From an uncultured Trueperaceae bacterium (lineage in GTDB: Bacteria; Deinococcota; Deinococci; Deinococcales; Trueperaceae), in contig CALMXZ010000010.1 in assembly GCA_937873495.1 (NCBI GenBank), positions 558,001 through 622,000 of the forward strand: DNA of 64,000 nt. The letters run 5' to 3'. The position numbers and the translations under genes are program-made. Position 1 is the first letter of the stretch, and each line of letters begins with the position of its first letter. Positions 10,487 through 12,077 of the stretch are shown here, in pieces. Under the pieces are notes generated by a model. It saw nothing but the letters and a program-made list of their open reading frames with translations, was not told the origin of the DNA and did no database searches.

Positions 10487-10806
10487 GCGTTACCGCGGAG
10501 GCCTTCGATGTCGGGGCCTCCGAGGAGTTCCCCGAGGGCTCCATAACGGCGCGGGTCGTCGGCGACGCCGAGATAGTGGTCATCAGGCAGGGCGGCGAGC
10601 TGTTCGCCCTGCCTGATCGCTGCACCCACCAGCGCTACCCGCTGAGCGACGGCGAGCTGGAGGACGGCAAGATCCGCTGCCTCCACCACGGCGCCACGTT
10701 CGACCTTCACACGGGCAAGGCGACGCTGCCGGCCGTGAAGAAGATCCAGCTCTTCCAGGCGTTCGAAGCGAACGGGCGCGTGATCGTGTCGTTGCAGGAG
10801 CTGTGA
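10483..10806 (+). CDS. Rieske [2Fe-2S] ferredoxin of the suf operon
   Basis: A 107-residue Rieske protein of the small non-haem-oxygenase ferredoxin type. The cluster ligands are CTH (Cys47, His49) and CLHH (Cys66, His69), 17 residues apart. The C-terminal part has the usual TFDLHTGKAT turn. There is no membrane anchor, so it acts in the cytoplasm as an electron carrier. The GTG start overlaps the sufD stop. A Rieske ferredoxin at the end of a suf operon suggests electron supply to Fe-S assembly or a cluster recipient; which of these is inference. Confidence 0.92.
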   Translation: MSVTAEAFDVGASEEFPEGSITARVVGDAEIVVIRQGGELFALPDRCTHQRYPLSDGELEDGKIRCLHHGATFDLHTGKATLPAVKKIQLFQAFEANGRVIVSLQEL

Positions 10807-10891
10807 GGGGCGCTAGGGCGTCGTGGCTGCGTCGGGTTGCCGAGGTGCCCACGACCGTTCTCCGGCGCCTGACGATGCCGCCCGCGACCAT

Positions 10892-10928
10892 CCTTGCAAA
10901 TTGAAAGTCTGACTTTTAATATGCAAGG
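10892..10928 (+). promoter_or_regulatory. 37-bp palindrome carrying the promoter of the DUF4143 ATPase
   Basis: Arms CCTTGCAAATTGAAAGT (10892-10908) and ACTTTTAATATGCAAGG (10912-10928) pair at 15 of 17 positions around a 3-base centre. It is strongly AT-rich in a GC-rich genome and ends directly at the ATG at 10929. TTGCAA (10895-10900) and TAATAT (10917-10922), 16 bases apart, look like -35 and -10, with TAATAT 6 nt before the ATG. This is the spacing for a leaderless transcript. A repressor bound here would block the promoter; autoregulation by the gene product is a guess. Confidence 0.65.
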
Positions 10929-12077
10929 ATGAATGTCAGGCGGCGTCTCCAGGCGGAGGTGGAAAGGGCGCTCACGCGCTTCCCCGTCGTGGCGCTGCTG
11001 GGCCCCCGTCAGGTAGGCAAGACCACGCTGGCGGCCGACGTCGCGGAGCGCTCCAAGCTCGACGTTCTCCGCCTGGACCTCGAACTGCCTTCGCACGTGG
11101 CCAGGCTGGCCGACCCCGAGCTGTACCTGGGCCGCTACAGCGGGGCCCTCGTCGTGCTGGACGAGATCCAGCGGGTTCCAGAACTTTTCCCCGTACTGCG
11201 CGCGCTAGTCGATGCCGACCGGCGTCCAGGGCGGTTCCTGCTCCTCGGCTCTGCTTCCCCTGACCTGCTCAGGCAGTCGGCCGAGACCTTGGCGGGCAGG
11301 ATCCGCTACCTGGAACTGGCGCCTTTCACGCTCGACGAGGTCGGACGGACCCAGGAGAACATGCTGCGCCTATGGCTGCGCGGGGGTTTCCCGGGCAGTT
11401 ACTTGGCCGACTCGGACGAGGAGTCGCTCGAGTGGCGCGCCGAGTTCATCCGCACCTACCTGGAGCGCGACGTTCCGGCGCTGGGGATCGGGCTCGGCCC
11501 TGAACCTCTGCGGAGGTTCTGGCGGATGCTGGCCCACCGCCATGGGCAGCTGTGGAACGCGAGCGAGATGGGGCGCAACCTCGGGGTGAGCCCGCCGACG
11601 GCAGCTTCCTACCTGGACATCCTGGTGGGGACGTTCCTGGCGCGCCGTCTGGAGCCCTATCAGACCAACCTCGGCAAGCGGCTGGTCAAGTCGCCCAAGG
11701 TGTACCTGCGCGATCCCGGCCTGCTACATGCGTTGCTAGGCGTCGCGGACCTGGACGACCTGCAGGGGCACCCGATCGTCGGGGCGTCCTGGGAAGGGTT
11801 CTTGATCGAGCAGCTCCTGACCATCCGGCAGCCACGGGACGCCGCGTTCTACCGAACGGCGGCGGGCGCCGAGCTGGACCTCGTGGTGTCGGGTGAGCGG
11901 CGCCGGAAGGTCGGGTACGAGATGAAGTACTCGTCCGCGCCCGCGGTTGCCAAGGGGTTCTGGCAGTCACTGGAAGACCTGGAGATAGAGACGGCCTCCG
12001 TGCTGTATCCGGGGGAGGAGCGCTGGCCGCTACGGCCGGGGGTCGAGGTGGTGCCGGCGACCTCGGTCGGGGAGTGA
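10929..12077 (+). CDS. AAA ATPase with DUF4143 domain
   Basis: A 382-residue protein of the AAA_14/DUF4143 group. Walker A is GPRQVGKT (25-32), Walker B is LVVLDEIQ (about 77-84), and the sensor-like LLLGSASP follows. The C-terminal DUF4143 part contains a winged-helix-like stretch (ASEMGRNLGVSPPTAASYLDIL) and ends with a nuclease-like ELDLVV...YEMKYS core (E...D...E.K spacing of the PD-(D/E)XK fold). The biological role of the family is not established; it is often carried on mobile or variable DNA. The gene stands alone behind an AT-rich palindrome and has no Shine-Dalgarno, pointing to recent acquisition with its own control element. Confidence 0.88.
   Translation: MNVRRRLQAEVERALTRFPVVALLGPRQVGKTTLAADVAERSKLDVLRLDLELPSHVARLADPELYLGRYSGALVVLDEIQRVPELFPVLRALVDADRRPGRFLLLGSASPDLLRQSAETLAGRIRYLELAPFTLDEVGRTQENMLRLWLRGGFPGSYLADSDEESLEWRAEFIRTYLERDVPALGIGLGPEPLRRFWRMLAHRHGQLWNASEMGRNLGVSPPTAASYLDILVGTFLARRLEPYQTNLGKRLVKSPKVYLRDPGLLHALLGVADLDDLQGHPIVGASWEGFLIEQLLTIRQPRDAAFYRTAAGAELDLVVSGERRRKVGYEMKYSSAPAVAKGFWQSLEDLEIETASVLYPGEERWPLRPGVEVVPATSVGE

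Follow-up and report, generated by a model that had tools for sequence, protein, structure and literature searches.

Introduction

BrxR and CapW are autoregulating winged-helix repressors of defense loci, and BirA is a bifunctional winged-helix protein, at once an enzyme and a repressor. Among the most common candidate defense genes in prokaryotes is PDC-S01, in which an ATPase is joined to a domain of the PD-(D/E)XK superfamily and which a 2026 survey ranked as the fourth most common defense across all prokaryotes; for most such candidates, experimental validation is pending (PMC12988326). Its trigger, target and regulation were not described in the literature searched (PMC12988326), nor was any operator, autoregulation or DNA-recognition surface of PDC-S01 / AAA_14-DUF4143 (COG1373). 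The locus considered here, in a 64-kb stretch of DNA referred to below as the window, carries a gene of this family that starts within a long palindrome.

The Gene, Its Protein and Its Neighbors

The gene and the relevant parts of its protein are:

10929..12077, + strand: AAA_14-DUF4143 gene, 382 codons plus stop (PADLOC PDC-S01, E 7.8e-93)
10983..11342, + strand: AAA_14 ATPase domain, aa 19-138 (Pfam; Walker A and B residues invariant)
11499..11708, + strand: winged helix-turn-helix, aa 191-260 (AlphaFold model, pLDDT 94.5; MarR-type sequence match weak)
11592-11630, + strand: recognition helix, aa 222-234 (AlphaFold model)
11859..11870, + strand: loop aa 311-314 of the nuclease-like domain, a turn between strands 304-310 and 315-321, with outer-arm coupling
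11871..11927, + strand: PD-(D/E)XK-like catalytic residues E315, D317, E331 and K333, with E289 upstream

Both Pfam domains score over their curated cut-offs (AAA_14, 93.3 bits; DUF4143, 149.3 bits), and by its domains, PADLOC match and conserved motifs the gene qualifies as a member of AAA_14-DUF4143 / PDC-S01. G25, K31, T33, D78, E79, E289, E315 and E331 are invariant in 35 homologs, and D317 and K333 are conserved in at least 90%. No structure of a DUF4143 protein was found in the PDB by sequence search or among the fold matches listed. In an AlphaFold model built from 35 homologs (pLDDT 94.5, pTM 0.91), the predicted helices and strands can be read as an AAA domain followed by a winged helix and then a nuclease-like core, whose strand 315-321 would hold E315 and D317; residues 311-314 are modeled as an exposed-type turn. 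For viral contigs, only 11 relatives were found among the candidates scanned.

The gene is solitary, flanked by a ferredoxin-like gene belonging to the suf cluster and by a convergent ispF. No real neighbor family recurs in more than four of 80 homologous loci, the larger neighbor clusters being, as judged from their coordinates, other frames of the DUF4143 gene itself; the solitary gene, without a recurrent neighbor in these 80 loci, does not meet the description of a type II toxin-antitoxin two-gene operon.

Promoter and Start Codon Within One Palindrome

The features of the upstream region are:

10889..10931, no strand: putative palindromic operator, 43 bp, center at 10910, arms 10889-10909 and 10911-10931
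10902..10906 (mirror 10914-10918), no strand: inner half-site, 4-8 bp from the center, predicted recognition-helix contact, coupled to residues 221-227
10892..10897 (mirror 10923-10928), no strand: outer half-site, 13-18 bp from the center, predicted contact of loop 311-314
10894..10899, + strand: -35 box TTGCAA, at -35 to -30 counting from the ATG (+1), 17 bp upstream of the -10 box
10917..10922, + strand: -10 box TAATAT, at -12 to -7, 6 nt upstream of the ATG, leaderless geometry

The palindrome reads CATCCTTGCAAATTGAAAGTC-T-GACTTTTAATATGCAAGGATG, two 21-nt arms separated by a single base and complementary at 19 of 21 positions (90%). Its symmetry score of 16 is the highest of all centers in the window; maxima in ten first-order Markov copies of the window were 10.5-14.5. 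A first-pass annotation had described a 37-bp palindrome (10892-10928) with 15 of 17 positions paired and arms ending exactly at the ATG. That palindrome is real, but it is merely the inner portion of the 43 bp, and the full palindrome takes in the ATG (10929-10931) as its right end. The sharp difference in base composition from the genome that was also claimed is borne out by an A+T content of 65% vs 29% for the window, in which only 0.1% of 43-bp stretches are equally AT-rich. The next strongest palindromes in the window, at 10582-10617 and 2835-2869, are GC-rich, and one of them lies within the ferredoxin-like gene.

Promoter, operator and start site were correctly placed within one palindrome by the earlier reading: TTGCAA and TAATAT lie inside it at the proper spacing, and the ATG is included. 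The -35 box proposed at the time, TTGAAA (10901-10906), has to be given up, since it is only 10 bp from the -10 box and TTGCAA has the 17-bp spacing. The leaderless spacing inferred then also stands, the boxes falling at -35 to -30 and -12 to -7 when the ATG is counted as +1. A logo of 27 genes whose palindrome is centered at -19 has TTGCAA at -35 to -30 together with A-11 and T-7. In a second register, comprising 19 genes, the palindrome is displaced upstream by about 12 bp, approximately one helical turn, to a center near -31, and A-11 and T-7 are still present (84% each). Since these two bases stay in place while the palindrome shifts, the promoter keeps its distance from the ATG, and the operator occupies either of two registers. 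A script assigned the start codons, in some genes incorrectly; centers at about -11 are, by inspection, mostly such cases. With the boxes exactly at -35 and -10 relative to an ATG at +1, the mRNA is probably leaderless, an inference from promoter geometry without 5'-end data.

This geometry bears on the idea that the inverted repeat functions at the RNA level, as a hairpin serving for attenuation, termination or masking of the start codon. The start codon does lie within the right arm, and G-U-type mismatches in the palindromes number 65 vs 44 expected from composition, although this is not clearly above the A-C type (46 vs 42.6). Transcription from the inferred start at the ATG would, however, leave the left arm untranscribed, and the co-variation of protein residues with single bases described below requires recognition of DNA; a hairpin role is considered highly improbable.

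Palindromes Upstream of Homologous Genes

A palindrome scoring at least 8 is found upstream of 71% of 218 homologs from many phyla vs 8% of shuffles, so that the outcome named beforehand as refuting the first reading, no conserved palindrome upstream of close homologs, did not materialize. The difference widens at higher scores: at least 11 in 43.6% of the 218 genes vs 0.18% of shuffled sequences, and at least 12 in 34% vs none of 1,090 shuffles. In 79 further loci, also from many phyla, 37% reach 11 or more vs 1.1% of 2,987 windows taken elsewhere in those loci. The share of genes with a palindrome barely drops with distance from the window protein. Palindromes scoring below 8 were excluded by this strict detector, leaving about 29-30% of genes uncounted, some of them clearly with imperfect versions. 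The sample contains no archaeal genes, and an Actinomycetota group in the 218-gene survey seems to lack the palindrome.

What is conserved is the symmetric architecture; the letters change from gene to gene. The outer arm is frequently CC[TA]TG[CA]AAATT, the inner arm is variable, and some homologs have perfect palindromes of 45-58 bp. The window's own genome also encodes a paralog with 37% identity, whose 39-bp palindrome, ATTGCACCGATTGTCAATCTGACTTACAATCGGTGCAAT, shares the architecture but not the letters, a pattern repeated in homologs within the phylum. Operators of paralogs sharing a genome are no more alike than others (mean mismatch 0.60 vs 0.52 for unrelated pairs; 12 pairs). The search signature suggested earlier, TTGAAAGT-N3-5-ACTTT, is accordingly too narrow, as homologs bear other letters.

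Two literal patterns were tried and rejected. An extended form of TTGAAAGT-N3-5-ACTTT matches only the window site in its own genome and does not serve as a general signature. The literal outer-arm pattern gave four hits in 398 Pseudomonadota genomes, one a DUF4143 operator and three weakly symmetric coding sites; with one true operator in four, a fixed pattern is a poor finder, and symmetry and gene position are needed.

Several individual loci depart from the usual form. A perfect 58-bp palindrome (TGACTGAATTAACGTAAATTGCGTCAGTTAACTGACGC...) occurs with identical letters in two genomes, 5-11 bp ahead of DUF4143 genes (L198, + strand, about 318-375; L199, - strand, about 318-375). In a distinct DUF4143 subgroup (L026, L030, L032), two ACACGNNGCGTGT-type palindromes are nested within a larger one upstream of the start. 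At L162, two adjacent DUF4143 genes have separate palindromes with differing letters, one perfect across 49 bp, and in the window's own genome a distant DUF4143 relative is preceded by a perfect 18-bp palindrome, TAGAATGTCTACATTCTA (L004, 609-626). L220, L232, L237, L240 and the own-genome L003 form a DUF4143 subgroup, mostly from the Actinomycetota search, without long palindromes and with GGTAGCGT-like -10 elements near the start codon.

Could the palindrome be an accident of chance or composition? Short palindromes are common, and TTGCAA/TTGAAA-like words are usual in AT-rich promoters. Against this stand the top symmetry score in 64 kb and the differently lettered palindromes ahead of homologs across phyla, a survey result that refutes chance. 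In a congener (G092), moreover, the gene is at the same place and the palindrome is kept at 40 of 43 positions, while the intergenic DNA upstream can hardly be aligned. Chance is virtually ruled out.

Co-variation of Protein and Operator

If the protein reads its own operator, its amino acids and the operator bases should co-vary. Mutual information between alignment columns and half-site positions, corrected for row and column averages, was calculated for 105 non-redundant genes with a base-centered palindrome (about 7,400 pairs; k is the distance from the center). The strongest couplings were 223-k6 (z 11.9), 312-k16 (10.0), 222-k8 (8.7) and 222-k7 (7.6), followed by 223-k5 (7.3), 311-k13 (6.1), 221-k5 (6.0) and 227-k4 (5.0). 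All eight pairs are confined to the recognition helix with its first flanking residue, or to the turn before catalytic E315. In the inner arm, the positions 4-8 bp from the center co-vary with residues 221-227 of the recognition helix; in the outer arm, positions 13 and 16 co-vary with residues 311 and 312 of the 311-314 loop, which is the basis for the predicted outer half-site contact. Partial-correlation windows peak at the wing (241-265); single-column coupling gives a sharper signal, in the recognition helix and the 311-314 loop.

The only controls for kinship were permutation within clades and the use of held-out groups. When operators were permuted within protein clades, defined without the recognition-helix and loop regions, none of 200 shuffles reached the observed mutual information for any of the eight pairs. 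The familywise 95% limit at the strictest clade level is z = 7.4 (maximum 8.8), and four pairs therefore exceed it; 223-k5 is just under, and the last three are supported by the per-pair test. The associations recur in independent clades, K223 with G6 in 10 of 11 and H222 with G7 in 10 of 10. The resulting code pairs Lys or His at 223 with G6, His at 222 with G7, Glu or Asp at 222 with C at 8 or 7, Asn or Gln at 312 with A16, and Asp at 312 with C16. These links suit known side-chain preferences.

Residue-to-base tables frozen from the 105 genes were then applied to 23 operators of new non-redundant genes, obtained by searching the phyla of two loci labeled Acidobacteria and Delongbacteria; the set is small (19-23 genes). 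For the inner arm, accuracy was 0.79 for k6 and 0.71 for k5 from residue 223, and 0.82 for k7 and 0.85 for k8 from residue 222; for the outer arm, it was 0.71 for k16 from residue 312 and 0.59 for k13 from residue 311. Shuffling gave means of 0.37-0.50 for these six main predictions (p between 0.0005 and 0.008), with about 0.40 against the inner-arm accuracies of 0.79-0.85. Predicting k4 from residue 227, a weaker coupling, reached 0.55 (p 0.02). No significance on the held-out set was obtained when the pairings were exchanged (k6 predicted from 312, k16 from 223) or when a column of the ATPase domain served as control. For the window protein, the tables give A at k5 and k6 from P223, T at k16 from A312 and C at k13 from A311, in agreement with the left arm; as the window gene is among the 105, this is consistency and not a test.

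A self-operator would be expected to be a symmetric site over the gene's own promoter, with letters set by residues of the protein's DNA-binding domain. The first holds; the second is met by co-variation only. The suggestion in the first-pass annotation that the protein itself recognizes the site through its winged helix gains support from the co-variation, the within-clade permutation and the held-out test, and the DUF4143 protein very probably reads its own operator, although no binding data exist. That same gap leaves room for an unlinked host regulator or partner protein as the reader, with the DUF4143 protein not binding at all, and other regulators do control many small genes. Yet the operator letters differ between paralogs in the same genome, they track residues of each gene's own protein in both training and held-out sets, and there is no conserved neighbor gene; a separate reader is given only a slim chance. 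The putative second reading surface, a loop beside the active site of the nuclease-like domain, was unexpected.

Travel With the Gene

The proposal that the control unit is portable and travels with the gene agrees with the palindromes ahead of homologs in many phyla and with a congener lacking both. In this congener (G091), the gap between the ferredoxin and ispF genes is about 107 bp and empty of the DUF4143 gene, and this one clean empty site examined holds no related palindrome or half-palindrome. In the window's own genome, the operator pattern occurs in a single copy.

The palindrome might also be a cleavage or integration target, with a homing-like site-specific nuclease cutting its own palindrome and regulation secondary. 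Such a reading would fit the conserved nuclease-like catalytic residues, the coupling of the loop adjoining E315 to outer-arm bases, and the patchy distribution of the gene. It is considered improbable: the site is exactly on a promoter of fixed geometry, the G091 empty site has neither palindrome nor half-palindrome, and intact operator and intact gene share one chromosome.

Signs of turnover were seen elsewhere. One locus (L119; G123:C86:34328-34362) has a clean operator close to the window's letters (CTTGCATATTGAAAGTCTCACTTTGAATTTGCAAG) followed by an ATG without an intact ATPase frame, apparently the leftover of a decayed gene. Five genomes (G716, G829, G803, G119, G931) each match the DUF4143 profile 16-20 times, with several matches fragmentary or interrupted by stops, which suggests rapid gain and decay.

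A Possible Mechanism

The preferred explanation, for which confidence is high, is that the palindrome is a dedicated self-operator of the downstream DUF4143 protein, laid over a leaderless sigma-70-type promoter and used for autorepression; binding and repression are both inferred. The palindrome would be bound by a symmetric dimer or by two subunits of an oligomer (the oligomeric state is likewise inferred), the recognition helix of the winged helix lying on the inner arm (4-8 bp) and the nuclease-domain loop on the outer arm (13-18 bp). Occupancy from about -39 to +2 would cover the -35 box, the -10 box and the start site and exclude RNA polymerase, so that the protein would repress its own gene and remain scarce. 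Autorepression is deduced from the position of the operator; in the absence of binding, footprint or expression data, activation is not excluded. The AAA ATPase would be a natural switch, sensing a signal (phage infection is a candidate) and releasing the protein from the operator, with increased expression and the freeing of an ATP-driven nuclease as possible consequences; the trigger, the nuclease target and the nuclease activity itself are all presumed.

If the loop beside the active site reads the outer arm, the nuclease might be parked while bound to the operator, or the operator might itself be a possible substrate. An extension, speculative and rather doubtful at present, is that PDC-S01 proteins are self-addressed nucleases, the winged helix and nuclease-like domain jointly reading a gene-specific palindrome, with one address per paralog: occupancy would silence the gene and hold the nuclease inactive, and firing of the ATPase would let these reading surfaces guide it to other DNA or to incoming copies of the address.

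The operator offers a first handle on PDC-S01, providing for each protein a specific DNA ligand, predicted contact residues and a transferable recognition code, and it makes the uncharacterized DUF4143 family directly testable. The co-variation is also evidence that the nuclease-like domain meets specific DNA, binding again being inferred. It suggests how many paralogs may share one genome without cross-regulation, and the family could be a source of orthogonal protein-operator pairs.

Comparison With Known Systems

As with BrxR and CapW, a winged helix would sit on a palindrome that covers a defense-related promoter; those are separate regulators, whereas here regulator, ATPase and nuclease-like effector would be a single polypeptide, encoded by a gene that stands alone. 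Like BirA, one protein would be both an enzyme and the repressor of its own gene, but the enzyme is a different one, and in the DUF4143 protein operator reading appears to involve a second domain, the nuclease-like one, as well. The best near whole-length fold match besides RuvB-type motors is 2qen, an archaeal Walker-type ATPase from Pyrococcus abyssi (TM 0.49), which is only 18% identical to the DUF4143 protein and for which, to our knowledge, no operator is known. In type II toxin-antitoxin systems (reviewed in PMC4803016), too, a toxic or effector activity is kept low by a palindromic self-operator at its promoter, but the window gene has no antitoxin partner, and its DNA-binding domain is fused to the effector. 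Another close system is PDC-S01 / COG1373 itself, a candidate single-gene phage defense (PMC12988326), to which the window gene belongs by domains, PADLOC match and motifs.
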